From positions 1 through 64,000 of the IMG/VR virus record IMGVR_UViG_3300044811_000010: a stretch of DNA of 64,000 bases; one strand, written 5' to 3'. Shown here in pieces: positions 1,007-51,996 of this stretch. The DNA is from a virus. Position 1 is the stretch's first letter. Each line of letters begins with the position of its first letter. The notes under the pieces are model-generated. The model saw only the letters and a program-made list of their open reading frames with translations, had not been told where the DNA came from and ran no database searches. A program made the position numbers and the translations under genes.

Positions 1007-1231
1007 ATGCAGCTCACCAACCGGCATCCTCGCCCGGCCGCTCTCGCGTCAGAACTCGCGGACGCTCAGGCGAAGCACAACGCGGAGGTCGCCGCCTCCA
1101 AGCAGCGACTAGCCGACAAGCGGGACTGGGTCGTTCAGCGGGCGACGGATCGAGTGCAGGCTGTTCGCGAGCTTCAGCGTGACCTGAAGACCGAAGAGCA
1201 GGCGCTCAGCGATCTGATCAAGGCCGCGTAG
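1007..1231 (+). CDS. Small coiled-coil protein
   Basis: 74 residues, almost entirely charged helix from residue 14 (alternating Ala/Glu/Lys/Arg/Gln heptads), so a coiled coil is likely. Start set at ATG 1007 because GAAGGAGG lies seven bases upstream; a longer in-frame extension from 914 lacks any such signal. It lies just before the first RNA array. No family recognised. Confidence 0.6.
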   Translation: MQLTNRHPRPAALASELADAQAKHNAEVAASKQRLADKRDWVVQRATDRVQAVRELQRDLKTEEQALSDLIKAA

Positions 1232-1251
1232 CTGATAGGCTACGGTGTGTA

Positions 1252-1325
1252 GGGCCGACGTTGGAGGGCAGAACGGGTAAACGGAAACGCCCCGGCTGTC
1301 GAGGGTTCGACTCCCTCTCGGTCCA
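1252..1325 (+). tRNA. Irregular tRNA-like element, anticodon unclear
   Basis: A seven-pair acceptor (1252-1258 with 1318-1324, including G3:U70), discriminator A1325 and a perfect T-arm (1301-1317, loop TTCGACT) are clear. The 42 nt between them is the normal length but does not fold into a standard D-arm plus anticodon arm. CGTT/AACG could form a D-stem, and CGGG/CCCG would enclose a 13-nt loop. It may be a decayed or modified tRNA, possibly alanine-chargeable through G3:U70. Confidence 0.4.
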
Positions 1326-1327
1326 TC

Positions 1328-1386
1328 GGGGATTACAGGCATCGACGCGCCTAGCGCGGACGTGGGTTCGACTCCCACAGTCTCCA
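1328..1386 (+). ncRNA. Minimal tmRNA-like tRNA domain without mRNA part
   Basis: 59 nt. The acceptor GGGGATT (1328-1334) pairs with AGTCTCC (1379-1385) including G3:U70, the alanine identity pair, followed by discriminator A1386. The T-arm is 1362-1378. Where a tRNA has its D-arm there is an unpaired stretch GGCATCGAC, close to the D-loop signature of tmRNA, and GGAC precedes the T-stem as in tmRNA. A four-pair stem CGCG/CGCG with loop CCTAG replaces the whole P2, tag and pseudoknot part. Could instead be an armless tRNA. Confidence 0.5.
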
Positions 1387-1388
1387 CT

Positions 1389-1681
1389 GCAAGGCAGTAC
1401 AGACGGCCGCGCGGTCCCCTGCTCAGGTAAGGCACCGTGAGGAAGGTCGAGGCATCGCGCCCCGCCACATTGGGGAGGACGAGGGGCAAGAGGGAGGGCT
1501 TAGGCCCGCTATGACCTCAACTGCGGTCAAGCGATGCGATCCCTGAAGCGCCGGCGAGTGGCAGCCGGACTGGTGGGAGCGGCGGTAGCGAGCAATCGCC
1601 CGCTAGAGCCTAGGCTCTAAGAAGGATGGTCGTCACCGGCACAGGCCGGCACAGAACCTCGCCTATCGGACTGACTTGCAT
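1389..1681 (+). ncRNA. rnpB: RNase P RNA (phage-encoded ribozyme)
   Basis: Catalytic RNA that trims tRNA 5' leaders. Both conserved ends are present: GAGGAAGGTCGAGGC (1439-1453, CR-I) and ACAGAACCTCGCCTATCGG (1651-1669, CR-V). Pairing supports the fold. P1: 1389-1398 with 1670-1679, ten pairs. P2: GACGGCC (1402-1408) with GGTCGTC (1628-1634). P4: CGAGG (1448-1452) with CCTCG (1657-1661), where E. coli has CCGGG/CCCGG, a compensated change. At about 293 nt it is shorter than the ~377-nt E. coli RNA, so the specificity domain is probably reduced. It begins two bases after the preceding tRNA-like element. The protein subunit is not seen here, so host RnpA may be used. Confidence 0.85.
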
Positions 1682-1704
1682 CTGTCAACGAAGTATGCTA
1701 GAGT
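1676..1704 (+). promoter_or_regulatory. tRNA-array promoter 1
   Basis: -35 TTGCAT (1676-1681), 17-bp spacer, -10 TAGAGT (1699-1704). The same layout and similar spacer recur at 9604-9632 before the third tRNA array. The -35 overlaps the 3' end of the RNase P RNA. Confidence 0.7.
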
Positions 1705-1713
1705 TCTTCGAAC

Positions 1714-1762
1714 GCCGCAGAGGTTGGCTCTGTAGGAGGTTTGAATCCTCCGTGCGGCTCCA
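1714..1762 (+). ncRNA. 49-nt mini tRNA-like element with encoded CCA
   Basis: Begins about ten bases after the -10 of promoter 1, close to the predicted transcript start. Stem GCCGCA (1714-1719) pairs with TGCGGC (1753-1758), then T1759 and an encoded CCA. A perfect T-arm (GGAGG, loop TTTGAAT, CCTCC) is present. Only one other hairpin (AGAG/CTCT) replaces both D-arm and anticodon arm. It may be a tRNA relic or a processed mimic. Confidence 0.4.
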
Positions 1763-1835
1763 GGGGGTGTAGCTCTAACGGTAGAGCGCCTGCCTTGCAA
1801 GCAGAGGGTTGTGGGTTCGAATCCCATCTCCTCCA
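1763..1835 (+). tRNA. tRNA-Ala(TGC)
   Basis: 73 nt; loop CTTGCAA reads TGC. The G3:U70 pair agrees with alanine identity. No encoded CCA. Confidence 0.93.
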
Positions 1836-1863
1836 CTTGGGGAGTCTTCGGGCTCCCCGCCAA

Positions 1864-1935
1864 GCGCCGCTAACTCAGCGGGAGAGTGCCACGGTGACAA
1901 CGTGGAAGTCGCAAGTTCGATTCTTGCGCGGCGCA
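1864..1935 (+). tRNA. tRNA-Val(GAC)
   Basis: 72 nt; perfect acceptor GCGCCGC/GCGGCGC; stem CCACG/CGTGG with loop GTGACAA. No CCA. The spacer before it (1840-1858) holds a small hairpin GGGAG/CTCCC. Confidence 0.93.
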
Positions 1936-1941
1936 CTTCAT

Positions 1942-2014
1942 GGCCCTGTAGCTCAGCGTGTAGAGCGTCCGGTTTACACCCGGCAGGTCGTAGGTTCGAA
2001 TCCTACCAGGGCCA
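1942..2014 (+). tRNA. tRNA-Val(TAC)
   Basis: 73 nt; acceptor GGCCCTG/CAGGGCC; loop TTTACAC reads TAC; no CCA. Confidence 0.92.
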
Positions 2015-2019
2015 CTCAT

Positions 2020-2096
2020 GGGACAGTATCCCCTCCGTCTGATAAGCGGTAGAAAGGGTAGCTGGTAACACGAGGGTTCAACTCCTTCCTGTCCCA
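2020..2096 (+). tRNA. Irregular tRNA-Ile(GAT)-like element with displaced D-arm motif
   Basis: Acceptor GGGACAG/CTGTCCC, T-arm (2072-2088) and discriminator A2096 are normal. An anticodon-like hairpin TCCGT-CTGATAA-GCGGT (loop reads GAT, isoleucine) follows the acceptor after only seven bases, so no D-arm lies before it. A D-arm-like sequence (GTAGCTGGTAACAC) occurs after it, inside a 21-nt variable region. If functional it would supply the only Ile(GAU) isoacceptor of the set. Confidence 0.45.
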
Positions 2097-2100
2097 CTCC

Positions 2101-2173
2101 GCAGCGGTAGCTCAATTGGTAGAGCACCACCTTGCCATGGTGGATGTCGCGAGTTCGAATCTCGTCCGCTGCT
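2101..2173 (+). tRNA. tRNA-Gly(GCC)
   Basis: 73 nt; acceptor GCAGCGG/CCGCTGC, stem CCACC/GGTGG, loop TTGCCAT; no CCA. Confidence 0.93.
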
Positions 2174-2176
2174 TAC

Positions 2177-2249
2177 GCCTCCGTAACTCAAATGGCTAGA
2201 GGCCCGGCTCTTACCCGGTGCGATGCGGGTTCGATTCCTGCCGGGGGTA
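2177..2249 (+). tRNA. tRNA-Lys(CTT)
   Basis: 73 nt; acceptor GCCTCCG/CGGGGGT with G:U pairs; loop CTCTTAC reads CTT; no CCA. Confidence 0.9.
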
Positions 2250-2253
2250 CTTC

Positions 2254-2326
2254 GCTCGCATGGCGCAAATGGCAGCGCACTCCCTTGGTATGGGAGAGGT
2301 TCTGAGTTCGAGTCTCAGTGTGAGCT
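2254..2326 (+). tRNA. tRNA-Thr(GGT)
   Basis: 73 nt; acceptor GCTCGCA/TGTGAGC; stem CTCCC/GGGAG, loop TTGGTAT; no CCA. Confidence 0.92.
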
Positions 2327-2327
2327 T

Positions 2328-2365
2328 CGGTGGGAAATGTCGGCCGTAAGGCTGGGCGCCCATCG
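2328..2365 (+). other. Structured spacer, tRNA-like double stem without T-arm
   Basis: CGGTGGG pairs with CCCATCG (one G:U), enclosing a second hairpin CGGCC-GTAA-GGCTG. It fills the gap between two Thr tRNAs. No T-loop, so not a tRNA; possibly a relic or processing element. Confidence 0.35.
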
Positions 2366-2369
2366 GTAC

Positions 2370-2437
2370 GCCTCGCCATCAGGAGATGGCCTGTCCCTTG
2401 TAAGGACGGAGGCTGGGTTCGAGTCCCAGGCGAGGCT
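2370..2437 (+). tRNA. tRNA-Thr(TGT), short D-arm
   Basis: 68 nt; acceptor GCCTCGC/GCGAGGC, loop CTTGTAA. The D-arm is only CATC-AGGA-GATG, with no GG loop. No CCA. Confidence 0.85.
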
Positions 2438-2441
2438 CTTC

Positions 2442-2508
2442 GCCGGACGATCAGGGATCAGCCGTCTTTCGTAAGGACGGCAGACGAGTTCGATTCTCGT
2501 GTTCGGCT
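2442..2508 (+). tRNA. tRNA-Thr(CGT), short D-arm
   Basis: 67 nt; acceptor GCCGGAC/GTTCGGC, stem CGTCT/GGACG, loop TTCGTAA. Minimal D-arm GATC-AGG-GATC. No CCA. Confidence 0.83.
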
Positions 2509-2511
2509 TAC

Positions 2512-2584
2512 GCAGGTGTGTTCACAACGGCATGATGCTGGCCTTCCAAGCCATGCGATGAGGGTTCGACTCCCTTCACCTGTT
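2512..2584 (+). tRNA. tRNA-Gly(TCC)
   Basis: 73 nt; acceptor GCAGGTG/CACCTGT, stem TGGC/GCCA, loop CTTCCAA. Followed by an encoded CCA at 2585-2587, which almost all the others lack. Confidence 0.88.
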
Positions 2585-2596
2585 CCAAGGTTGTAG

Positions 2597-2658
2597 GTCA
2601 CCACGACCGCTGACTCCCGCGCGCATAAAGACGTAAGGCGCGGGGCGAGGACGGTGAC
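2597..2658 (+). other. Structured spacer RNA between tRNA-Gly and tRNA-Phe
   Basis: The 82-base spacer forms an outer stem GTCACC/GGTGAC around a strong inner stem CCCGCGC/GCGCGGG with a ~16-nt loop. It lacks tRNA features and hammerhead core bases. Function unknown. Confidence 0.4.
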
Positions 2659-2669
2659 TGCGTCTATGC

Positions 2670-2742
2670 GGCTTCGTAGCTCAGTCGGTAGAGCAGGCCC
2701 CTGAAAAGGGTCGTGTCGCAGGTTCGAATCCTGCCGAAGCCA
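2670..2742 (+). tRNA. tRNA-Phe(GAA)
   Basis: 73 nt; acceptor GGCTTCG/CGAAGCC; loop CTGAAAA; no CCA. Last gene of the first array. Confidence 0.94.
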
Positions 2743-2746
2743 CTTC

Positions 2747-2786
2747 AACGCCCGCTAGAGAGGTCCGATCCCTCCTAGCGGGCGTT
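2747..2786. terminator. Bidirectional terminator hairpin
   Basis: Perfect 12-bp inverted repeat AACGCCCGCTAG / CTAGCGGGCGTT between the convergent ends of the first RNA array and the leftward operon ending at 2794. Confidence 0.75.
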
Positions 2787-2793
2787 CTGCGTT

Positions 2794-2994
2794 CTAGGGC
2801 TTGAGGAACGTGACGACGAGTCCGATGGTGTAAGGATCTCGTTGGTTGCCACCTTCCAGCGCTGAAGCAGACGACAGTGCGTAGCCAGCGTCTGCTGCAG
2901 CCTTCAGCTCGGCGACGAACGTCTCGGTGTCTGACAGAGACGCCGGGATTGGGGTCTTCACCGTCACGGTGTCCACGCGCTTGACCTCGATCAT
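2794..2994 (-). CDS. Small hypothetical protein
   Basis: 66 residues beginning MIEVKRVDTV. Start at ATG 2994 because it overlaps the stop of the upstream gene (ATGA); the longer frame reaching 3081 would run through that gene. Predicted beta strand, then an Ala-rich helix, then a beta strand (TIGLVVTFLKP). No family recognised. Last gene of a leftward operon starting at 3946. Confidence 0.6.
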   Translation of the reverse strand: MIEVKRVDTVTVKTPIPASLSDTETFVAELKAAADAGYALSSASALEGGNQRDPYTIGLVVTFLKP

Positions 2995-3203
2995 CCGAGC
3001 ACCAGTACGCTGTTGGCGTTCTTGACCACCGAGACGTGGCCTAGATCGTTCTCGATCCTGATGCGATAGACGACGTGCCACTGGCTGACGCGCTTAGGCT
3101 CCCCAGGGTCGAGGACGACGCCGGGAACGACTTGGCCGCTCTGGTTGTAAGCAACCCTAGCGCCCCTCGTGATCTCAGTACCTCGGCTGTCGCAGACGAT
3201 CAT
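2991..3203 (-). CDS. Small beta-rich hypothetical protein
   Basis: 70 residues, compact and beta-rich (VAYNQSGQVVPGVVLD, WHVVYRIRIEND). It overlaps its upstream and downstream neighbours by four bases each, so it is translationally coupled between the phosphoesterase and the terminal small gene. The sequence suggests an SH3-like or KOW-like barrel, but that is only an impression. Confidence 0.6.
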   Translation of the reverse strand: MIVCDSRGTEITRGARVAYNQSGQVVPGVVLDPGEPKRVSQWHVVYRIRIENDLGHVSVVKNANSVLVLG

Positions 3204-3946
3204 CGGGATTCACCGGCTGCCTTGGCTGCCGCCTTGCGGCCGGCGGCGTCATCGAGCTGCTCCTGCGTCGTCTCGGGGTAGACACCTAGGATCGCAGCGT
3301 CGAGCAGCAGCTTGAGGTTGACGGGGCGGTACTTCGTCTGCTCGACCGAGAGGTTGATGTGGTTGCGGACGAACGGAACGAAGGCGTCCCGGCTGTAGCC
3401 GTTGTTGTGGATGTGGCCGTGGACGCGGATGTGGTCGGCGGACATGGGCCCGTCCTCGGCGTCGTTCCATGCGTAGTGCGAGAAGCTGACTTGGTGCTGG
3501 CAGTCGGCCGGGTCGCCGAGTGGGTCGTCAAACCCGCGCACGCGCAGGTACGGCTCCTCTGCGTGGACTTCGAGGCCCAGCGCGAACGGCCGCACGACTT
3601 GGAAGCCTGACTTCTTGTAGAAGCTGTAGGGCTGCTTGTCGTGGTTGCCGATGATCAGCAGCTTACGGGCGCCGGTCAGCTCCTTGGCGATCAGGTGCTT
3701 GAAGCGGCCGTTGCCTCGGTAGCTGAGGTCGCCAAGGTGGAGCACCGTAGCGTCGTCAGGCACTTGGGCTCGCCATTCGGCGATCATCACTTGCTCGTGG
3801 TCTTCCGGCCTATGGCAGAAGCCGACGATGTTGTCGTGGCCGAAGTGCGTGTCGGAGACGATCCAAGTGTTCTCTGGGTCGATGTCGTCACGGAACTTCA
3901 TGGCCGGGCGCGATTCGGACGCGCTGCCGGTTCTAGAGTTGCTCAT
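3200..3946 (-). CDS. Calcineurin-like metallophosphoesterase
   Basis: 248 residues with the metal-binding motifs in order: SDTHFGH (31-37), GDLSY (72-76), GNHDK (100-104), a SHYAWN histidine block and GHIHN. Phage members of this family hydrolyse phosphoesters, but the substrate cannot be told from sequence. ATG 3946 lies six bases after a -10 box, so the transcript is probably leaderless; ATG 3901 is an alternative start with no Shine-Dalgarno site. First gene of a three-gene coupled operon. Confidence 0.85.
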   Translation of the reverse strand: MSNSRTGSASESRPAMKFRDDIDPENTWIVSDTHFGHDNIVGFCHRPEDHEQVMIAEWRAQVPDDATVLHLGDLSYRGNGRFKHLIAKELTGARKLLIIGNHDKQPYSFYKKSGFQVVRPFALGLEVHAEEPYLRVRGFDDPLGDPADCQHQVSFSHYAWNDAEDGPMSADHIRVHGHIHNNGYSRDAFVPFVRNHINLSVEQTKYRPVNLKLLLDAAILGVYPETTQEQLDDAAGRKAAAKAAGESR

Positions 3947-3952
3947 ACGAGA

Positions 3953-3958
3953 ATCGTA
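3953..3958 (-). promoter_or_regulatory. -10 box of leaderless promoter
   Basis: TACGAT with upstream TGG on the minus strand, six bases before ATG 3946. Two copies of GTGCTAATC lie further upstream (about 3972-4001), possible operators. Confidence 0.55.
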
Positions 3959-4026
3959 CCACTAACGGGCCTGATTAGCACGCTTTCGCGAGCGATTAGC
4001 ACGATCACCGGCCCGGAATCGAAGAT

Positions 4027-4059
4027 AAAGTGGCGGTTAGAGGGTCTAACCGCAACTTT
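4027..4059 (-). terminator. Terminator of the NAD salvage operon
   Basis: 15-bp inverted repeat with one mismatch (AAAGTGGCGGTTAGA / TCTAACCGCAACTTT) around GGG, just after the stop at 4068 in the leftward direction. Confidence 0.65.
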
Positions 4060-4067
4060 ACTGGCAC

Positions 4068-4409
4068 TCAGAACCCGAGTTCGTCAAGGCTGGCGCGTGG
4101 GTCGGAATCTAGGACCACTTCTTCGCCGCTGCAGCCCCAAGGCTCGGCGCAGGGGACGTGATGTGGGCACGGACGGGCAACGCGCTTGTAGCCCTTCGGA
4201 ATGCTGCGCGCCCTAGGAGGCGTCGGCTTGTCGATGAACACGCCGAACTCCTTGAAGCAGTCGGCGCAGAGGTCGTACTTGCGATCCGGGTACAGCCCAG
4301 GGTCCTGCTGACGGCCGTTTGCCTTCAGGCCGGGCACGTCGATGGTGCGGCGACCGCTGCGGATTTCCCTACCGCAGCGGTCGCACTCGATGATGTTCCT
4401 GACGCCCAT
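4068..4409 (-). CDS. Zinc-ribbon protein of the NAD salvage operon
   Basis: 113 residues. ECDRCG (8-13) and LCADC (47-51) form a CxxC...CxxC zinc ribbon. A second cysteine/histidine cluster (CPHHVPCAEPWGC) follows around residues 80-92. The gene overlaps the NAMPT stop by one base and is the last of the operon, so it is made together with the two NAD enzymes. No function is known to me; metal binding is inferred. Confidence 0.65.
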   Translation of the reverse strand: MGVRNIIECDRCGREIRSGRRTIDVPGLKANGRQQDPGLYPDRKYDLCADCFKEFGVFIDKPTPPRARSIPKGYKRVARPCPHHVPCAEPWGCSGEEVVLDSDPRASLDELGF

Positions 4410-5812
4410 CAGAGCGCCGCCCTCTCACGGATCTGGTCGAACGTCTGCTCGTTGACGAGCTGGCCGTCCTTGAACACCGTCTGCAGCGCGTCGCACTCGT
4501 CGTTGTCGAGCCACACGCCTTCCCTGTCCGTGTGGAAGGTGTTGTGCTGCAGGTTCTGGATCAGTGTCAAGCGGCCCTTCTTCGACGCCTTGGTGGAGTC
4601 CAAGGGCTTCTTGTACACGTCGTGCCACTCGCCGTCGCGTTGCTGAGCGCTGCTCTTGAACGCGAAGCGGCAGGTGTCGCGGTTGAGGCGCTGCAGGAGG
4701 CCTCCGCCCATCCCGAACACGAGGTTCTCGGGGCTGAACCCCTGCAACATAGCGCGGTTGACGATCTTCTCGATGCCATGCTCGTCAATCCCGTCGCCCC
4801 ACAGCAGCCGGACGTGCGGGTCGAGGACCCTGAATCCCTTAGGCGTCTGGGTTCCGCCGTAGTAGCTCCACAGCCGCTCCAAGAGCGCCGAGGTCAGGAG
4901 CTGCGGAGTCGGATGGTCGCGCGTGACCGAGTCCGGCCGCACGACGAACACGCCGTCGCGCGAGAGGATGCGGTCCTTGAACGTCGTCCCGACCCGATCC
5001 ACGAACTCGTAGATGTCGTAGGAGTCCGCGACGACGCTGAGGATGCCGCCGGGGTGGTTGTCGAGAAGCCGCGACGTGATCGCGGCCTCTCCATCACGGC
5101 CGAGCGAGGTCATGACCGAGTGCTCGGTCGCCGGAACGCTGAACGCCAGCGTGTTGGGGTCAGCGCCATAGTCACGGATTGCCAGAAGCAGCGCCGGCAG
5201 CGTGTCAGCGCCAACGAAGCTCGTCAAATGGCCCGCCACGGCAATCGCGGCGGCCTCATGGCCCGCTGCACCCCGGTATCCGAAGTCGTGGAGCATGAAT
5301 TGAAGCCCATCGAGGCCCGATCCGGCCGCAGTGAGGCGTTCGGCGAGCATTCGCTTGACCGAGCGGCTCCTAGTGGCAACCGTCGTCGGGTACCAGACGT
5401 GCATGAGCAGCGATTCGAGCGCGTTGGTGAGCCAGAACGCATCGGGGTCGGTGTTCTCGACCGCCATCAGCACGTTCCCGACCGGGACAACGGACCCCTC
5501 GGGCACGGCCTTGATGTGCAGCGGCAGACGCCCTCCATGCCGGTCGATGATCGTCTCCCAGCCCTTGTAGTTGAAGACCGAAGCGTCCCCGAAGTGGACC
5601 CGAGCCAGCTCGAAGGCTTCACTGAGGTTCTCGTAGGTCACGCGAGGGATGGTCTTCAGGATGGACTGCAGGCCGAAGAACACCGTCTCGTCGTACTCCG
5701 AACCCTGACGGGCTTCGAGGTAGCTGTAGACGCCGGTCGTGTTGGCCGGGTACTGATTCCAGTGGCCCAGCTTGTAACTGTCGGTTGCGAGGATCGGATT
5801 GTCGAGCATCAT
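4409..5812 (-). CDS. nadV: Nicotinamide phosphoribosyltransferase (NAMPT)
   Basis: 467 residues, normal length for the family. It joins nicotinamide and PRPP to give nicotinamide mononucleotide. The N-terminus DSYKLGHWNQYP and the later blocks HDFGYRGAAGHEAA, RPDSVTRDHPTPQ and FGMGGGLLQRLNRDT match NAMPT active-site regions. AAAGGAG eight bases before ATG 5812 sets the start. It lies three bases after the NMN adenylyltransferase gene in the same operon, so together they rebuild NAD+ from nicotinamide in two steps. Confidence 0.95.
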   Translation of the reverse strand: MMLDNPILATDSYKLGHWNQYPANTTGVYSYLEARQGSEYDETVFFGLQSILKTIPRVTYENLSEAFELARVHFGDASVFNYKGWETIIDRHGGRLPLHIKAVPEGSVVPVGNVLMAVENTDPDAFWLTNALESLLMHVWYPTTVATRSRSVKRMLAERLTAAGSGLDGLQFMLHDFGYRGAAGHEAAAIAVAGHLTSFVGADTLPALLLAIRDYGADPNTLAFSVPATEHSVMTSLGRDGEAAITSRLLDNHPGGILSVVADSYDIYEFVDRVGTTFKDRILSRDGVFVVRPDSVTRDHPTPQLLTSALLERLWSYYGGTQTPKGFRVLDPHVRLLWGDGIDEHGIEKIVNRAMLQGFSPENLVFGMGGGLLQRLNRDTCRFAFKSSAQQRDGEWHDVYKKPLDSTKASKKGRLTLIQNLQHNTFHTDREGVWLDNDECDALQTVFKDGQLVNEQTFDQIRERAAL

Positions 5813-5814
5813 GG

Positions 5815-6885
5815 CTACGACTCCTTTCGATTGAGGTAGTCCACCAGCATCCCCATCAGCGGACGGTGCTCGGGGACAAGGTTGTTGTAGAACTGCTCTC
5901 GGGAGACTGGGTTGCCGAGTTCCTTCCCGTACTTCACGTCAGGCAGGTCAATCCACTTGACCTCTTCGATGTCGTCGCCCGGCGTGGGGCGGCCGTGGGT
6001 GTACTGCGCCGTGAACAGCATCGTCTTGATGCAGTCCGGCTCGTTGCGGTAGCGCCAGTCATCGACTCGAAGCGACCCGACGTAGCGCACATCCTCGACG
6101 TTCAGGCTCGTCTCTTCCTGAACCTCACGCTTGGCGTCGGCCTCGAAGCTGTCGGAGCGCGGGTCGGAGAAACCGCCAATGAAGCGATAGAGCGTCTCGT
6201 TTGGCTTGCGGCCGAGCAGAAGCTGCAAGGGCTTCTCCGTCGCATAGAAGGCTGCGGCCTCGTCTCGATGCACCGGACACGCAGTCCGTGGCTGGCAGCT
6301 TCGACAGTCGATCCACGACTGCGAAGCCTTGCGCTCGCGCGAGGGAACGTCCTTGAGAATCGCCACGTCTACCGTCGTGTAGGCGGTCGGGAAGCGGGCC
6401 TGCGACGCCCAGATGACGCCGGCACGGAACTCGGGGCTGGACTTAGCCCGGCTGCGGGCGATGTCCTTGCGCTGCGCGCGGCCGGAGTAGAACGTGGTCT
6501 GCGTCAGCTCCTGCGTCGGGTGGTTGCCCGTGTAGTGGCTGATGAAGGAGTCGCGGCCGCCGTAGAGGACGACGCTCTGGCCGGGAGCGACGAGGTTGGC
6601 GATGTTGTCGTCAAGAACGTGCGACCACGCGCGGTCGTTGTTCAAGTCCTTGACGTACAGGACGTTGGCCTCGGGGAACTCCGCGAGGATCATCTGCTTG
6701 CGCGCCTCGAAGTCGAGCGGATTGTTCGTGGAGACGGAAAGCGGCGAAAGGCCGAGGAAGATGATGACCTTGTCGTGCCGGTCGCAGACGTACTTGATCA
6801 GCTCCCTATGAGCGTTGTGCAGCTCATGGACCTGGAATCGCCCTACCAGTACCCCTACGTCGTACTGCTTCTCTGTTGGCTGCAT
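5815..6885 (-). CDS. nadM: Bifunctional NMN adenylyltransferase / Nudix hydrolase
   Basis: 356 residues. N-terminal nucleotidyltransferase: GRFQ (15-18) with HNAH (23-26), plus the block PLSVSTNNPLDFEARKQM. C-terminal Nudix domain: box starting GGFSDPRSDSFEADAKREV with QEET. The first domain makes NAD+ from NMN and ATP. The Nudix part in relatives cleaves ADP-ribose or similar, which could remove products of NADase defences. I chose ATG 6885 (GAAGGAGG upstream) over ATG 6921, which has no ribosome site. Confidence 0.9.
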   Translation of the reverse strand: MQPTEKQYDVGVLVGRFQVHELHNAHRELIKYVCDRHDKVIIFLGLSPLSVSTNNPLDFEARKQMILAEFPEANVLYVKDLNNDRAWSHVLDDNIANLVAPGQSVVLYGGRDSFISHYTGNHPTQELTQTTFYSGRAQRKDIARSRAKSSPEFRAGVIWASQARFPTAYTTVDVAILKDVPSRERKASQSWIDCRSCQPRTACPVHRDEAAAFYATEKPLQLLLGRKPNETLYRFIGGFSDPRSDSFEADAKREVQEETSLNVEDVRYVGSLRVDDWRYRNEPDCIKTMLFTAQYTHGRPTPGDDIEEVKWIDLPDVKYGKELGNPVSREQFYNNLVPEHRPLMGMLVDYLNRKES

Positions 6886-6942
6886 CAGGCGCAAACCTCC
6901 TTCTATGTCCGGGCCGCGCATCGGTGCGACGGCTCTACGAGA

Positions 6943-6948
6943 ACCGTA
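6943..6948 (-). promoter_or_regulatory. Extended -10 box of the NAD salvage operon
   Basis: TGG-TACGGT on the minus strand, about 57 bases before ATG 6885. Here a leader with a strong Shine-Dalgarno site follows, unlike the leaderless genes. Confidence 0.5.
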
Positions 6949-6974
6949 CCACAGGGCGGCGACGAGCGCAAGGG

Positions 6975-6980
6975 TAGAGT
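6975..6980 (+). promoter_or_regulatory. -10 box of leaderless promoter
   Basis: TAGAGT ends six bases before GTG 6987. Confidence 0.45.
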
Positions 6981-6986
6981 GGGAGG

Positions 6987-7391
6987 GTGGCTTTTCTCCG
7001 AGTAGTCAGAAAGAACTGGGTAGTGATTCTACTTCTGTTCGCCATCGTCTCGTCCTTCTTGGCGTCGATGCAGCAGACGCGCGCCGACACGGCTCAAGTT
7101 CGATCCAAGGCAATCGCCCTCTGCACCATCGACAACCAACGCGCCGTGCTGGTCATCACCTTCAAGTTCTCGGTGGCGAGGGCGGCGGACAAGCGCGGCG
7201 AGCACGCGGCGGCTGCTCACTTCCGGGCTCTTGGAGATAGTGGGCTGGCGTTGATCCCACTTGCCCCGGAAGATCAAGCCGAGCGAGCCCACCTAGCCGA
7301 TGTCATTCCGCAGGGAGGGCACTTCGTGCTGCCGCAGAAGGCGAAGGACGCGATCCGCGCGGGATGCGTGGATTCCTACCGCGCCAACTAG
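6987..7391 (+). CDS. Membrane-anchored small protein
   Basis: 134 residues, GTG start fixed by the -10 box six bases upstream. Residues 10-27 (NWVVILLLFAIVSSFLAS) form one transmembrane segment after a basic N-terminus, so the rest is probably outside the membrane. Two cysteines (CTIDN and AGCVDSYRAN) may pair. A similar plan (anchor, C..N, distal AxC) occurs in the protein at 60944. Function unknown. Confidence 0.6.
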   Translation: MAFLRVVRKNWVVILLLFAIVSSFLASMQQTRADTAQVRSKAIALCTIDNQRAVLVITFKFSVARAADKRGEHAAAAHFRALGDSGLALIPLAPEDQAERAHLADVIPQGGHFVLPQKAKDAIRAGCVDSYRAN

Positions 7392-7406
7392 GTCAGAGAA
7401 GCGTGC

Positions 7407-7412
7407 TATAGT
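7407..7412 (+). promoter_or_regulatory. -10 box of second tRNA array
   Basis: TATAGT, ten bases before tRNA-Tyr; the -35 region is weak. Confidence 0.5.
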
Positions 7413-7421
7413 CCCTGACGC

Positions 7422-7499
7422 GCTGCCGCGCATAGGCGAGCAAGGCCGGCTGTAACCCGGCGTCCTCTGGACTTGCAGGTTCGACTCCTGACGGCAGCA
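7422..7499 (+). tRNA. tRNA-Tyr(GTA)
   Basis: 78 nt, class II with variable arm GTCC-TCT-GGAC; stem GCCGG/CCGGC, loop CTGTAAC. No CCA. One mismatch at the base of the T-stem. Confidence 0.9.
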
Positions 7500-7503
7500 C
7501 TTC

Positions 7504-7587
7504 GGAAGGCTCCGCTTGGTGGCAGGCAACTCGGTTCGAACCCGAGGGCGGCGTTTCTCGTTGGGGGTTCGACTCCTCAGCCTTCCG
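7504..7587 (+). tRNA. tRNA-Ser(CGA)
   Basis: 84 nt, class II; acceptor GGAAGGC/GCCTTCC, stem CTCGG/CCGAG, loop TTCGAAC. Same T-stem mismatch as the Tyr tRNA. No CCA. Confidence 0.87.
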
Positions 7588-7591
7588 CTTC

Positions 7592-7663
7592 GTCGTAGTG
7601 CTGGGAGTGGCGACCAGCCGGGCTGCAACCCCGAGAACGTCGGTTCGAATCCGACCTACGACT
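7592..7663 (+). tRNA. tRNA-Cys(GCA)
   Basis: 72 nt; acceptor GTCGTAG/CTACGAC, loop CTGCAAC, no CCA. Confidence 0.92.
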
Positions 7664-7666
7664 TAC

Positions 7667-7753
7667 GGAGAGGACCCGGCTGGATCAGGAGCTTGCCCGC
7701 TAAGCAAGTAGCGCGTCCTAGATGTGTTCGGGGTTCGAGTCCCCGTCTCTCCG
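7667..7753 (+). tRNA. tRNA-Ser(GCT)
   Basis: 87 nt, class II; stem CTTGC/GCAAG, loop CCGCTAA. Position 33 is C instead of the near-universal U. The 5' half is nearly identical to the next Ser tRNA. No CCA. Confidence 0.88.
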
Positions 7754-7758
7754 CTCAC

Positions 7759-7844
7759 GGAGAGGACCCGGCTGGATCAGGAGCATCCCTGGAAAGGATG
7801 TGCGGCGGTCACGCGTCTTCAGGGTTCGAGTCCCTGTCTCTCCG
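7759..7844 (+). tRNA. tRNA-Ser(GGA)
   Basis: 86 nt, class II; stem CATCC/GGATG, loop CTGGAAA; no CCA. Recent duplicate of the Ser(GCT) gene, judging by the shared acceptor and D-arm. Confidence 0.92.
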
Positions 7845-7997
7845 CTTGATCGCTCCAACGGCTGCCCCGAGTAGCGCGACGATCATCACCAGTGCCGCAA
7901 GTGCCGCCACTACGACAGCCGCGTAGATGACGATGAAGGGCAGCAGGATCCCCGCGACGAGCGCGATTCCGGTGCCCAAGCAGCCTCCGTCAGACAT
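7809..7997 (-). CDS. Small two-helix membrane protein overlapping tRNA-Ser
   Basis: 62 residues. Residues 9-50 are almost wholly hydrophobic (ALVAGILLPFIVIYAAVVV, then AALVMIVALLGAAVGAI), giving one long or two short transmembrane helices before a charged tail. The last 36 bases run antisense through tRNA-Ser(GGA). It follows the CCA-adding enzyme by 34 bases. The overlap lowers confidence. Confidence 0.5.
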   Translation of the reverse strand: MSDGGCLGTGIALVAGILLPFIVIYAAVVVAALAALVMIVALLGAAVGAIKRRDRDSNPEDA

Positions 7998-8031
7998 CAG
8001 CCGCAGCAGACTCCACTGCAGGCGCCGCAGC

Positions 8032-9564
8032 TCACGCGAGCGCCTCGGCCCGCGTGAGCTGCCACTCCCGCGACATCGTCTGCTCGGTGGGCTGGCAGAC
8101 GACATCGTCCAGCACGGCGTTGAGGATCTCGCCGATCTTGCGGCCGTCCGCGCCGATGGCGCGCACGTCATGGCCGTTGATCTTCAGGTCCCTCGGAGAC
8201 GTGGGGACGTTGTCCTTCTCCGCCTCACGGCGCAGCAGTTCCATCCGGCTGATCTGCTCGATGTGACCCTTGTTGGGCTTGCCCTTGCCAGTCAGGTCGC
8301 ACATGCGGTGCAGGAACAGGTCGGCCAGCAGCTCGTCCCCGAACTGCACACGCATCCGGCGGACCTTCGAGCCCTTGAGCTTGCCGTCGACGGTGACCAT
8401 GTGATTGCGAATGAGCAGGCGCACGTCCTCGCGCAGACCGTTGCCTGCGTTCAGGCGCCGAGCGGTCTTGTTCCAGATGCGGGCGCCCGCAACCTCGTGG
8501 TCCTCCGTGGCGACCATCATCGGCGCGCCGCTAGCGACAGAGCGGGACGCGGTCCCGTCCTGAGCGTAGTAGTGCTTGCGTCCGTCCTTCCCAATCCACG
8601 CCGTCTCAGGCTTGCCCGCGTCGTGGAACAGCAGGGCCATGCGGACGCGCAGCGGCGCGTCGACGTGCGTAGCCGTCGTCAGAGCAGCGAACGTGTGCTC
8701 GTCGGTGGTCAGGTCGTGGTAGCGCGAGCCCTGATCGAAGCCGATCATCGGAGCCAGCTCAGGCAGCAGTGTGGCGAGAACGCCAGTGTCGAGCGCCAGC
8801 CTCAGCGCCTTGACCGGCTCGTCGCCCATCAGCAGCTTGCACAGCTCTTCCAGCACGGTTCCGGACGCGTAGCCATTGGCGCTCAGGCCGTTTACAGCGT
8901 CAGCGTGCTCACGCATCTGGTCGAGCGTGTTGCTCGACAGGTCGTAGCCAAGCGTCGAAACGAAGCGCAGAGCACGCAGCGTGCGCAGCGGGTCGTCGCG
9001 GAACGAATCCGGGTGAGTGGTGCGGATGATCTTATGGCTCAGGTCGTACAGGCCGCAGTTCGTCGGGTCCACGACGTTCTCGACCAGTGCCCCGCCCGAC
9101 ATGGTGGTCAACGAAGACATGCCGGCAGTCGGATCCACGATCTTGTAGAGAGCGTTGAACGTGAAGTCACGGCGCACGGCGTCTTCGTCCAGCCGCAGGT
9201 TCGGGTCAACCACGATGTCAAACGCGCGATGCACGTTCTCGCCGGGGGCGGGCGCGCGAGGGCGCTCCGTGCGCGGCAGGACGACTTCGATCAGACCCAT
9301 GCCGCGCGCGGCGACCCGCCATCCGGCCTGCCGACCATCGCGCAGCACCAGCGGGGAAACGACGTTGGACTTGTTCGCGGGGTCGTACCGAATCGCGGCG
9401 TCCTTGAGCGCAATGCCCAGCTTCGCCAGTCCGACGCCTCGGATCATGTAGTCAGCGTCCTTGACCTTGCGGCCGATCAGTTCGTCTCGAACGGAGCCGC
9501 CGACGCGGTAGGCTTCGAAGCCCAGGCCGGCGATGAAAGTGTCTGTCCGCTCGATGTACGCCAT
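8032..9564 (-). CDS. cca: CCA-adding tRNA nucleotidyltransferase
   Basis: 510 residues. Adds or repairs the 3' CCA end of tRNA. The nucleotidyltransferase head has GGSVRD (22-27) and the catalytic DAD (36-38). A central basic RNA-binding part follows, then an HD domain with LLFHDAGKPETA around residue 305. ATG 9564 is chosen because a -10 box (TACGTT) ends six bases before it; the longer frame to 9609 crosses that promoter. It lies between two tRNA arrays whose genes almost all lack CCA, so these tRNAs depend on such an enzyme. Confidence 0.93.
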   Translation of the reverse strand: MAYIERTDTFIAGLGFEAYRVGGSVRDELIGRKVKDADYMIRGVGLAKLGIALKDAAIRYDPANKSNVVSPLVLRDGRQAGWRVAARGMGLIEVVLPRTERPRAPAPGENVHRAFDIVVDPNLRLDEDAVRRDFTFNALYKIVDPTAGMSSLTTMSGGALVENVVDPTNCGLYDLSHKIIRTTHPDSFRDDPLRTLRALRFVSTLGYDLSSNTLDQMREHADAVNGLSANGYASGTVLEELCKLLMGDEPVKALRLALDTGVLATLLPELAPMIGFDQGSRYHDLTTDEHTFAALTTATHVDAPLRVRMALLFHDAGKPETAWIGKDGRKHYYAQDGTASRSVASGAPMMVATEDHEVAGARIWNKTARRLNAGNGLREDVRLLIRNHMVTVDGKLKGSKVRRMRVQFGDELLADLFLHRMCDLTGKGKPNKGHIEQISRMELLRREAEKDNVPTSPRDLKINGHDVRAIGADGRKIGEILNAVLDDVVCQPTEQTMSREWQLTRAEALA

Positions 9565-9570
9565 GGGAGA

Positions 9571-9576
9571 AACGTA
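9571..9576 (-). promoter_or_regulatory. -10 box of leaderless cca promoter
   Basis: TGG-TACGTT, with TTGCGC 17 bases upstream as -35; six bases to ATG 9564. Confidence 0.6.
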
Positions 9577-9603
9577 CCACATTGGGCTTCCGGGCGCAAG
9601 TTC

Positions 9604-9632
9604 TTGCACATGTCACGAAGATGTGCTAGAGT
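9604..9632 (+). promoter_or_regulatory. tRNA-array promoter 3
   Basis: -35 TTGCAC (9604-9609), 17 bp, -10 TAGAGT (9627-9632). Near copy of promoter 1 at 1676. Confidence 0.7.
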
Positions 9633-9640
9633 CCCATCTC

Positions 9641-9680
9641 TGGTCAGCGCTCCGTCGGCGACGGCGGGTAGCGGGGCCAG
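9641..9680 (+). other. Structured leader of third tRNA array
   Basis: Between promoter and first tRNA: nested pairing CTGG/CCAG, CGCT/AGCG and a perfect CCGTC-GGC-GACGG hairpin. No T-loop. It occupies the place held by the mini tRNA-like element after promoter 1. Confidence 0.4.
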
Positions 9681-9685
9681 GACAC

Positions 9686-9757
9686 TGAGGAGTAGTGTAA
9701 TGGCAGCACCGGAGTCCTTGAAACTTCGTAGTGCGGGTTCGAGTCCCGCCTCCTCAT
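9686..9757 (+). tRNA. tRNA-Gln(TTG)
   Basis: 72 nt beginning with U1 as usual for Gln; loop CCTTGAA, so position 33 is C. No CCA. Confidence 0.86.
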
Positions 9758-9761
9758 TCAC

Positions 9762-9833
9762 TGCGGAATGGTGTAACGGCAGCATGGCGGGTTCTGAGCC
9801 CGTTCGATCTAGGTTCGAATCCTAGTTCCGCAG
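9762..9833 (+). tRNA. tRNA-Gln(CTG)
   Basis: 72 nt; acceptor TGCGGAA/TTCCGCA, loop TTCTGAG, no CCA. Confidence 0.92.
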
Positions 9834-9838
9834 CTCAC

Positions 9839-9909
9839 TGGCGTGTAGCTCAAGGGCAGAGCCTCCGGTTGTTACCCGGCGGATGAGGGTTCGAATCCTT
9901 CCATGCCAG
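9839..9909 (+). tRNA. tRNA-Asn(GTT)
   Basis: 71 nt; acceptor TGGCGTG/CATGCCA, loop TTGTTAC, no CCA. Confidence 0.91.
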
Positions 9910-9914
9910 CTCAT

Positions 9915-9988
9915 CAGCGTGTGGCGCAGTCTGGTAGCGCTCTTTTCTGGGGAAAATGAGGTCGCAGGTTCAAATCCTGCCACGCTGA
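9915..9988 (+). tRNA. tRNA-Pro(GGG)
   Basis: 74 nt starting C1 (Pro-like); loop CTGGGGA, no CCA. Confidence 0.9.
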
Positions 9989-9994
9989 CTTCTC

Positions 9995-10067
9995 GCAGCC
10001 ATGGTCTAGTGGTCATGATGCCGGCCTTTCAAGCCGGACGACGAGGGTTCGAATCCCTCTGGCTGTA
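9995..10067 (+). tRNA. tRNA-Glu(TTC)
   Basis: 73 nt; stem CCGGC/GCCGG, loop CTTTCAA, no CCA. Confidence 0.92.
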
Positions 10068-10071
10068 CTAC

Positions 10072-10144
10072 GGCGCGTTGGGGTAACGGTTAGCCTCTCA
10101 GCTTCTCAAGCTGCTGGATACGAGTTCGAATCTCGTACGCGCTA
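10072..10144 (+). tRNA. tRNA-Glu(CTC)
   Basis: 73 nt; acceptor GGCGCGT/ACGCGCT, loop TTCTCAA, no CCA. Confidence 0.9.
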
Positions 10145-10149
10145 CTCAT

Positions 10150-10221
10150 CGGGATCAAGTGTTTATGGCTGCACCGGCCCCTCGGACGGGTCAAGACGGA
10201 GTTCGAATCTCCGGTTCCCGA
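10150..10221 (+). tRNA. tRNA-Pro(CGG)
   Basis: 72 nt starting C1; stem GGCCC/GGGTC, loop CTCGGAC. One U:U mismatch in the acceptor. No CCA. Confidence 0.84.
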
Positions 10222-10225
10222 CTTC

Positions 10226-10308
10226 GCTCCCGTGGTGGAATGGTAGACGCGCTAGGTCGAGAGCCTAGTGCCCTAACGGGCGTGCAGGTTCAAGTCCTGC
10301 CGGGAGCA
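10226..10308 (+). tRNA. tRNA-Leu(GAG)
   Basis: 83 nt, class II with arm GCCC-TAAC-GGGC; stem CTAGG/CCTAG, loop TCGAGAG, so position 33 is C. No CCA. Confidence 0.88.
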
Positions 10309-10314
10309 CTGCAT

Positions 10315-10399
10315 ACCAGCGTGGTGAAATTTGGTAGACGCAGCAGGTTCAGAACCTGCCGGCCGCAAGGTCTTGAGGGTTCAAGTCCCTCCGCTGGTA
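10315..10399 (+). tRNA. tRNA-Leu(CAG)
   Basis: 85 nt, class II; stem GCAGG/CCTGC, loop TTCAGAA, no CCA. Confidence 0.9.
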
Positions 10400-10403
10400 C
10401 TAC

Positions 10404-10488
10404 GCAAGAGTGGCGAAATGGGTAAACGCTCCGGGCTCAAACCCCGGCGAGGTCATTCCTCTTGAGGGTTCGATTCCCTCCTCTTGTA
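10404..10488 (+). tRNA. tRNA-Leu(CAA)
   Basis: 85 nt, class II; stem CCGGG/CCCGG, loop CTCAAAC, no CCA. Confidence 0.92.
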
Positions 10489-10492
10489 CTAC

Positions 10493-10566
10493 GTCTCCTT
10501 AGCTCAGCAGGATAGAGCGCTGGTCCGCGAAGCCAGAGGCCGCAGGTTCGAATCCTGCAGGGGACG
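10493..10566 (+). tRNA. tRNA-Arg(GCG)
   Basis: 74 nt; acceptor GTCTCCT/AGGGGAC; stem CTGGT/GCCAG, loop CCGCGAA with C33. No CCA. Confidence 0.86.
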
Positions 10567-10570
10567 CTCC

Positions 10571-10644
10571 GGTGATGTAACTCAGTCGGATAGAGTGGCG
10601 GCTTGTCAAGCCGTTGGTCGCGGGTTCGAGTCCCGTCATCACCG
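10571..10644 (+). tRNA. tRNA-Asp(GTC)
   Basis: 74 nt; acceptor GGTGATG/CATCACC, loop TTGTCAA, G73 as expected for Asp. Confidence 0.93.
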
Positions 10645-10648
10645 CTTC

Positions 10649-10721
10649 GCCTCCGTAACTCAGCGGACAGAGTGCTTGGCCTCGAACCAAGTGGTCGCGG
10701 GTTCAAATCCTGCCGGGGGCG
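10649..10721 (+). tRNA. tRNA-Arg(TCG)
   Basis: 73 nt; stem CTTGG/CCAAG, loop CCTCGAA with C33. Similar body to tRNA-Lys at 2177. No CCA. Confidence 0.88.
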
Positions 10722-10727
10722 CTACAC

Positions 10728-10803
10728 GGTGAATGTAGACTAATCGGTCAAGTCCCTTGGTTGTGAACCAAGCCGATGCGGGTTCGAGTCCCGTCGTTCA
10801 CCC
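10728..10803 (+). tRNA. tRNA-His(GTG)
   Basis: 76 nt; stem CTTGG/CCAAG, loop TTGTGAA; discriminator C, typical of His. Confidence 0.9.
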
Positions 10804-10807
10804 TCTC

Positions 10808-10876
10808 GGGTCATAGGTCATGGCGACCAAGCAGGTTCCAACCCTGCAGGACAGCGTTCGATTCGTTGATGACCCG
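10808..10876 (+). tRNA. tRNA-Trp(CCA), short D-arm
   Basis: 69 nt; acceptor GGGTCAT/ATGACCC; D-arm GGTC-ATGGC-GACC; stem GCAGG/CCTGC, loop TTCCAAC. Confidence 0.87.
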
Positions 10877-10880
10877 CTTC

Positions 10881-10947
10881 GGCTCTCTGAAGGTACGACA
10901 CGGTCCCTCATAAGGACGGTGGACAGGTTCGAGTCCTGTGGGAGCTA
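10881..10947 (+). tRNA. tRNA with CAT anticodon, reduced D-arm
   Basis: 67 nt; acceptor GGCTCTC/GGGAGCT; stem GTCC/GGAC, loop CTCATAA. The D region has no convincing stem. Could be Met, or Ile(AUA) after lysidine modification. Confidence 0.75.
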
Positions 10948-10951
10948 CTTC

Positions 10952-11020
10952 GCCCTTGAAGTTGGATACGCGACGGCCCTCCTAAGGCTTGCGCAGCGAG
11001 TTCGATTCTCGCCGGGGGCT
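10952..11020 (+). tRNA. tRNA-Arg(CCT), reduced D-arm
   Basis: 69 nt; acceptor GCCCTTG/CGGGGGC; stem GGCC/GGCT, loop CTCCTAA; short D-arm; no CCA. Confidence 0.8.
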
Positions 11021-11021
11021 T

Positions 11022-11092
11022 CGCAGATAGGTGGTCTGGTGACCATTCGGGCCTCATAAGCCTGAGAGCAGGGTTCGACTCCCGGTCTGCTA
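11022..11092 (+). tRNA. tRNA with CAT anticodon
   Basis: 71 nt; loop CTCATAA. The acceptor CGCAGAT/GTCTGCT pairs except at C1:U72, a mismatch recalling initiator tRNA, but the anticodon stem lacks the three G:C pairs of initiators and the T-loop is then six bases. Met, initiator-like or Ile2 remain possible. Confidence 0.7.
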
Positions 11093-11099
11093 CTTGTGG

Positions 11100-46401: not shown

Positions 46402-46818
46402 CTATTCCTTGTAGGCGTCGTAAAGCTGACGAGCGACGCGGTCTACGAAGCCCTCGCGTCGCTGATCCACGGTTTCCTTGAAGTCCTCGTACGTCTGCTC
46501 GGGCATCCACGACTCGACCGCGTGTAGTGACACATCGAAGTCTCGCATCGCCACATGTACCCATTCGTGGATGATCGTCTGGTCGAGTTCGTGCTGGTCG
46601 GCCTCGTCCACGAAGTCGTTGTCGAAGTAGAAGTGACAGGAGTCGTAGAGAACCGAAGTCTGCACAGCAGCCACGGCAGACAAGCCTCCCCTACACGGAA
46701 CGTCGTCCGTCGTCGTCACGCACTTGATGTCGAAGTGCCCGATGGCTAGCATCGGCAGCCTCTTCTGCCAGAACTCGATACGCTTGGCTAGCTTGACAGC
46801 TCCCCGGCTGGTCATCAA
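46402..46818 (-). CDS. HExxH zincin-like metallopeptidase
   Basis: 138 residues. TIIHEWVHVAM (82-91) carries His84, Glu85, His88 of the zincin site; a third ligand may lie near residue 100. Similar small phage proteins are of SprT/WLM-like type, but this one is not clearly either. Start overlaps the upstream P-loop gene. Confidence 0.62.
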   Translation of the reverse strand: MMTSRGAVKLAKRIEFWQKRLPMLAIGHFDIKCVTTTDDVPCRGGLSAVAAVQTSVLYDSCHFYFDNDFVDEADQHELDQTIIHEWVHVAMRDFDVSLHAVESWMPEQTYEDFKETVDQRREGFVDRVARQLYDAYKE

Positions 46819-47474
46819 GCGAGTTCACTCTCAACTTCAGTCACGATCTGCTCGACGTGGTCTGTCGTGGTGCTCATGTTGAGTTCCAGACAAGGTAGCT
46901 CGTAGGCGTCCAGCATGTCCTTGATGCGCAGGTCGAGGTTCTGTGCCTCGATCTCGGACTGAGATCGGCCCTTAGGGTTGTAGGGCCGTTCGATGTTGCG
47001 GCGCAGGAACACGTTGAGCGTCCGGCGGGCACGCCAGTCAGCGACGATCCACTGGTGGAACGCAAGATCGCGGAGCGGCGAATCGCTGGACTTACTGTAA
47101 ATCAGCGAGAGCATCGTTGATGTGTCAGTAATGATGGCGTCGACTTGACCGTGGAGCCGGTCGTAGCGGAACATCTGCTTGGCAGCGACGTAGGGCTGAT
47201 GGGCCAGCGCGCGATGCCGCTGCTCCCACGTCAAGTCCTTCGCAACTTCGTGGACCAGCTCGACGTTGTGGCCGTGCTGCTTCAGCGCGCCGAATACCAG
47301 CGAAGCCGTCGTTGACTTACCCGTGCCGGGGCCTCCGTAGAGCGCCACCAGCAGCGGCTGAAGGCGCCCCTCGGCCCGGTCGATGTCCTGCTGCAAGCTT
47401 CCGATGATGGGCGGGCGGCTAGGAGGAAGGACGAACGGAACCTCGCGTACGCACGGCTGAGGACCAGCGACCAT
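46815..47474 (-). CDS. P-loop ATPase/kinase, NadR-like AAA type
   Basis: 219 residues. Walker A GGPGTGKST (47-55), VELVHEVAKDLTWEQR and an ITDTSTML Walker B-like strand, then FLRRNIERPYNPKGRSQSE. These fit the AAA_28/NadR-kinase-like family found in phages. A ribosyl-nicotinamide kinase role would suit the NAD genes at 4.4-6.9 kb, but substrate cannot be read from sequence. Confidence 0.65.
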   Translation of the reverse strand: MVAGPQPCVREVPFVLPPSRPPIIGSLQQDIDRAEGRLQPLLVALYGGPGTGKSTTASLVFGALKQHGHNVELVHEVAKDLTWEQRHRALAHQPYVAAKQMFRYDRLHGQVDAIITDTSTMLSLIYSKSSDSPLRDLAFHQWIVADWRARRTLNVFLRRNIERPYNPKGRSQSEIEAQNLDLRIKDMLDAYELPCLELNMSTTTDHVEQIVTEVESELA

Positions 47475-51838: not shown

Positions 51839-51996
51839 CAGCGCATGACCATCGCGGAGGCGTCCCCGACTGAAAGGAGCGGCCAGAGAACTCGACGCGC
51901 CTCGTTGGTTGCCGTGACGGCGCTGCTCATACGCCGCTCGTCCATGATGAAGGCGGCGAGTGCTGCTACAGCGTCATCGAAGTCGATCTTCGCCAT
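51838..51996 (-). CDS. Small helical protein
   Basis: 52 residues; shares single-base or four-base junctions with both neighbours. Helical (DFDDAVAALAAFIMDERRM). Unknown. Confidence 0.55.
   Translation of the reverse strand: MAKIDFDDAVAALAAFIMDERRMSSAVTATNEARRVLWPLLSVGDASAMVMR

Follow-up and report, generated by a model that had tools for sequence, protein, structure and literature searches.

NADase defences cleave NAD+ to nicotinamide and ADP-ribose. NARP2, said to have been described by Osterman et al. in Nature in 2024, is reportedly a two-gene phage set of NAMPT and NMNAT that makes NAD+ from nicotinamide. In passages of PMC12300627, PMC11984713 and PMC12043709 it is presented as phage NAD+ reconstitution pathway 2. 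Phage KVP40 has a salvage pair of NadV and NadM/NatV (Lee et al. 2017, as cited in a passage of PMC9503650). Phages with NadV/NadM were surveyed in PMC9503650, where the idea of NAD+ salvage versus defence was set out.

The stretch analysed here (the window) covers bases 1 to 64,000 of a virus record that is 80,254 bases long. It contained what we read as an NAD+ salvage operon of two genes, of the same kind as NARP2 or the KVP40 NadV-NadM pair, the likeliest benefit of which would be to keep NAD+ up against NADase defences (probability about 0.78). The original prediction of a NAMPT and NMNAT-Nudix pair at 4409-6885 was borne out, as both ORFs were found, separated by a gap of 2 nt, and the NAMPT scored over its curated cut-off. 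The features are listed in Table 1.

Table 1. Features of the putative salvage operon and of other genes considered (window coordinates)
Feature	Position	Strand	Size and basis
Predicted NMNAT-Nudix fusion	5815..6885	-	356 aa; ORF, PF00293, phrog_395, NadM profile/fold matches, ribosome site
Cys-rich stretch CxxC-x5-CxxH in Nudix domain	6235..6351	-	24-sequence alignment; low model confidence
NAMPT (nicotinamide phosphoribosyltransferase, NadV type)	4409..5812	-	467 aa; Pfam, PRK09198, phrog_448, solved NAMPTs
Small two-CxxC zinc-ribbon protein	4068..4409	-	113 aa ORF
Terminator-like hairpin, 9-bp stem	4033..4053	-	directly 3' of zinc-ribbon gene
Promoter-like 17-base box GTGGTACGGTTCTCGTA	6936..6952	-	upstream of operon; repeat scan
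One-base variant of promoter-like box	3946-3962	-	directly upstream of metallophosphoesterase gene
Calcineurin-like metallophosphoesterase	3200..3946	-	PF00149 2.1e-4; phrog_547 7.9e-32
P-loop kinase	46815-47474		PF13521; nearest PHROG 2107 'thymidylate kinase'

In the order of transcription on the minus strand, the fusion was followed by NAMPT, the zinc-ribbon gene, the terminator-like hairpin and the metallophosphoesterase gene. The start of the fusion at 6885 was preceded by a ribosome site (AAGGAGG), an alternative longer start at 6921 having none, and NAMPT had a ribosome site of its own (AAAGGAG). The codon-position G+C pattern of all genes in the operon region matched that of the rest of the phage. 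The hairpin is probably the end of the operon; its position alone is suggestive, because three terminator-like sites were observed in the region against 2.8 expected by chance. Scanning for the sigma-70 consensus gave no promoter, so the promoter-like box is supported by its repetition: at up to three mismatches, five sites were found against 0.14 expected, two of the five having defined the pattern. No upstream riboswitch was matched in Rfam. All 29 tRNA genes of the window (1229-11093) were on the plus strand with interspersed protein genes on the minus strand, and a tRNA nucleotidyltransferase gene (9609-8032, minus strand) lay inside this cluster.

The metallophosphoesterase gene has its own copy of the box and was excluded from the pair. 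As a third member it was rejected, since its family, present in roughly half of the related records, never adjoined the pair in the relatives searched; only in LR756500 did a distant metallophosphoesterase separate NMNAT from NAMPT. The copy of the box in front of this gene ends at its ATG, as in a leaderless transcript.

It had been predicted that a conserved zinc-ribbon gene follows in the operon and may be a new accessory. The gene does follow, its ORF having one base in common with the NAMPT stop, and because it overlaps this stop and precedes the hairpin it probably shares the operon transcript. Conservation and an accessory role were not upheld. The protein had no match in Pfam, PHROG or NCBIfam, tblastn of 50,697 phage records gave none, and a homologue was absent from every relative locus of the pair examined. 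The sole relatives found (L029 and L030, 48%, apparently the same stretch in two contigs) sit behind a gene that we take, from its sequence, to be rtcB-like, and the contig concerned, 139,911 bases long, yielded no NAMPT. A weak hint of an RNHCP domain was seen on the relative only. The likeliest reading of the zinc-ribbon gene is that of a bystander.

The NAMPT protein matched Pfam NAPRTase (3.5e-36) and NAMPT_N (1.3e-29), NCBIfam PRK09198 with 518.8 bits (cut-off 405) and phrog_448 (3.3e-149). It was matched end to end by 30-odd solved NAMPTs, human and Xanthomonas-type enzymes included, at 1e-109 to 1e-112. On comparison with human NAMPT, the catalytic-His motif (VPATEHS/VPAAEHS) and the Asp of GADT/GTDT were kept, together with the RPDS, HDFGYRG and DSYK motifs, and the catalytic His, Asp and Arg residues were all retained. 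We take VPATEHS to hold the catalytic His, and the Asp of GADT to be linked to the choice of nicotinamide. A NAMPT (NadV) gene with an intact active site, as in NARP2, was thus present. In locus L018 the NAMPT gene (1007-3370, plus strand) carried an in-frame insert of ~300 residues exactly before the catalytic SEHS motif. This insert is intein-like, starting with CYDEKTEIL and ending with VVCGN before Ser, and its match to an intein model was weak (E 0.004).

Namat and NAMPT are homologous and easily confused in annotation (PMC12774641), and in a NARP1-like reading the "NAMPT" would be a Namat joining nicotinamide to ADP-ribose pyrophosphate. The signature of the Namat selectivity clamp is GSX..TRD with two adenine-stacking aromatics (PMC12774641). 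At this site the window protein has GGGLLQRLNRD, with Gly and Arg in place of the two aromatics, and the Namat signature was not found in it; this NAMPT-like site identifies the enzyme, as judged from its sequence, as NAMPT and not Namat. An Adps-like PRPP-synthetase domain (PF13793) had no match in the 80,254-base, possibly incomplete record, in a search that recovered all 14 controls, and a NARP1-like system would have no need of an NMNAT neighbour. Such an identity is most improbable and was rejected.

The C-terminal half of the fusion matched Nudix PF00293 (1.6e-11), and its N-terminal half had no Pfam nucleotidyltransferase match. The best score with the NCBIfam NadM models (PRK05379) was 47.2 bits, well below the cut-off of 397, and phrog_395 (nucleotidyltransferase, "cytidyltransferase") gave 42 bits. 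The order of the domains, NMNAT then Nudix, is that of NadM. A profile built from 18 relatives placed bifunctional NadM structures at the top (2qjt, 1.5e-19; 2qjo, 2.5e-17), and a profile of the N-terminal half alone matched NadM and the archaeal NMNAT MJ0541 and nothing else. The AlphaFold model of the fusion was moderate (pLDDT 76, pTM 0.51), and its full-length fold matches were only the NadM structures 2qjt, 2r5w and 2qjo (E 1e-14 to 1e-15). The VIA-align rows span the Nudix half only and are therefore uninformative on the NMNAT half.

Invariant or near-invariant in the family were the Arg and Gln of GRFQ, the last His of the nucleotidyltransferase motif, D80, W87, a C-terminal S..R motif (S134/R139, ISxTxxR-like) and the glutamates of the Nudix REx2EE. 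At the position of W87 in the D80/W87 pair, NadM and MJ0541 also have a Trp, which presumably stacks on the nicotinamide ring. The canonical motif is GRFQ-x2-HxGH, whereas that of the clade is GRFQ-x4-[HTS]-x-x-H, the two residues inserted between GRFQ and the nucleotidyltransferase motif being constant. The third position of HxGH was free: HNAH occurs in the window and HQAH, HGMH, TEAH, HKFH, HPVH and HEGH in relatives, which have A, G, M, F or V there in a 24-sequence alignment. In place of the SGS/SGT of most relatives, the window protein carries SGR. Its Cys-rich stretch is peculiar to it and ~30 residues longer than the turn of relatives, with pLDDT below 50 at residues 188-194 and 200-216.

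Relatives of the fusion were drawn from phage records, IMG/VR and bacterial assemblies. In a maximum-likelihood tree, all 37 clade members lay apart from three canonical NadM (100/100 support, long branches), and the predicted fusion appears, with good support, to belong to a clade separate from canonical phage NadM. The original prediction had overlooked this divergence. A viral locus was counted as informative when it held the full NMNAT-Nudix gene and enough downstream sequence (n=20); duplicates, the canonical NadM loci L006, L007 and L032, and the NAMPT-queried L031 were left out. Each of the 20 had a same-strand NAMPT-family gene downstream, which in 15 of them lay within 120 nt. In L005 this gene was a remote homologue (27%), and in LR756500 (L004) it lay ~2 kb downstream. 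Sequence L009 stops inside the NMNAT-Nudix gene and was uninformative, and L028 had a Nudix domain alone and no NAMPT. Scans of viral contigs gave two loci with the NAMPT query and none with P0001. Pairwise identities of the two proteins were correlated across 31 loci, canonical NadM being left out (r = 0.40; one of 5000 permutations as high), and shared genome descent could be another source of this correlation.

Because all 20 informative viral relatives have it, the NAMPT beside the fusion is not a matter of chance, and this clade-wide linkage lends good support to the two-step route from nicotinamide through NMN to NAD+, of the NARP2 or KVP40 NadV-NadM type, that had been predicted. A linked NMN adenylyltransferase gene, the second component of NARP2, is predicted here from the NMNAT fold, key residues, the 2-nt spacing of the two genes and the linkage. 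The fusion might instead be another nucleotidyltransferase-Nudix enzyme, with a substrate such as nicotinate mononucleotide or a different mononucleotide, as the relaxed HxGH motif, the very low NadM scores and the label "cytidyltransferase", used by PHROG and for phage Tunturi_5, would allow. This is quite improbable in view of the constant NAMPT neighbour in viruses, the conserved Trp and Asp, and the profile and fold matches of the N-terminal half, which were to NMNAT/NadM only.

In bacterial assemblies NAMPT lay behind the fusion in 14/20 loci, and the remaining five bacterial genomes had a NAPRTase-family gene elsewhere, except that of L057. Candidate-phylum (Patescibacteria-type) assemblies carried the clade as a supported group (L053, L054, L055, L048 and L050); in several of these loci NAMPT was not directly behind the fusion and a NAPRTase-family gene was in the genome. 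This occurrence in bacteria, in the candidate phyla perhaps as ordinary metabolism, would suit a general boosting of NAD+ for phage replication and for host metabolism during infection, not tied specifically to defences that deplete NAD+, which was also the first reading of KVP40-type phages with the pair (PMC5107563). The rest of the record speaks against such boosting. An ATP-dependent DNA ligase was encoded outside the window (record 70433-71362), and no NAD-dependent ligase, sought as a consumer of NAD+, was detectable in the record, so that one obvious way for a phage to use NAD+ is absent. A MacroD-type macrodomain protein, overlooked in the original prediction, was encoded outside the window on the minus strand (record 72350-73075; L059 8350-9075), suggesting conflict over ADP-ribose. 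Its best solved relative is an O-acetyl-ADP-ribose deacetylase, and such a macrodomain was also present in two of the 19 remaining records. The phage thus carries a small set of tools for NAD+ and ADP-ribose, without any evident use of NAD+ in its own replication, which weakly favours the anti-defence reading; general boosting is possible but on balance unlikely.

Other genes of the record were noted. A DUF4406/nucleoside 2-deoxyribosyltransferase-like protein was encoded at window 51996-52619 (minus strand), and neighbouring RIIA- and RIIB-like genes lay outside the window (record 66555-69859; L059 2555-5859, minus strand). No close named relatives of the phage were found, its terminase and polymerase matches being distant. 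The P-loop kinase gene, ~40 kb from the pair, had been proposed as a NadR-like ATPase giving a third entry point to NAD+. It had no NMNAT domain, which NadR combines with a nicotinamide riboside kinase, and neither NCBIfam nor the solved structures gave a hit to NadR, whether a single sequence or a profile was searched. Its relatives occurred in 6/20 related records, the NAMPT-less contig included, and the proposal was abandoned in favour of a generic P-loop kinase.

For the favoured salvage operon the following steps are proposed. By strong homology, NAMPT would convert nicotinamide and PRPP to NMN, and the N-terminal half of the fusion would transfer AMP from ATP onto NMN to give NAD+. The Nudix half, judging from its fold and the known NadM enzymes, would most likely split ADP-ribose into AMP and ribose-5-phosphate, and these products might replenish the ATP and PRPP pools from the second product of NADase defences. 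The phage could thus sustain NAD+ when host NADase defences fire, using the nicotinamide released. The substrates of the pair, including that of the Nudix domain, and the direction of flux are those we infer; clearance of ADP-ribose by this domain, also raised in the original prediction, would follow the same reasoning. A role against Thoeris- or SEFIR-type NAD-depleting defences is suggested by analogy, because of the NARP2 literature (PMC12300627, PMC11984713) and the KVP40-type phages (PMC9503650). The relaxed GRFQ-x4-[HTS]-x-x-H site and the altered Nudix loop (Cys-rich and putatively metal-binding here) might further mark a distinct NARP2 partner with substrate preference or regulation unlike those of NadM, for example by coupling the synthesis of NAD+ to a recycling of ADP-ribose under defence conditions; this we consider improbable.

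Compared with the known systems, the window pair resembles NARP2 in being NAMPT plus NMNAT with a predicted route from nicotinamide to NAD+, and differs in that its NMNAT half comes from a divergent clade that falls short of the curated NadM cut-offs. It shares with NARP1 (Adps plus Namat) a NAMPT-family enzyme rebuilding NAD+, but lacks the Namat signature, has an NMNAT and was found with no Adps. A NadV-type NAMPT and an NMNAT-Nudix fusion are common to the window and KVP40; the window fusion has only ~22-24% identity to canonical phage NadM (L006, L032) and, unlike KVP40-type NadM, a two-residue insertion and a relaxed HxGH, its gene nearly touching that of NAMPT. The bifunctional NadM of Francisella and Synechocystis (2qjt, 2r5w, 2qjo) have the same two-domain order and are the best solved relatives, but identities in the fold alignments were 16-19%, the first Nudix Glu is replaced in the window protein, its loop is one residue longer and it has the Cys-rich stretch. 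The advance is modest, in that rebuilding of NAD+ by phages was already known and the divergent second enzyme is what is added. The strategy is extended to an NMNAT-Nudix clade far below the cut-offs of the curated models used (Pfam nucleotidyltransferase, NCBIfam NadM, PHROGs). Since these models miss this clade, phages that apparently have NAMPT only may hide a second enzyme, and the clade motif together with the linkage to NAMPT offers a means of finding such hidden NMNAT-Nudix partners.
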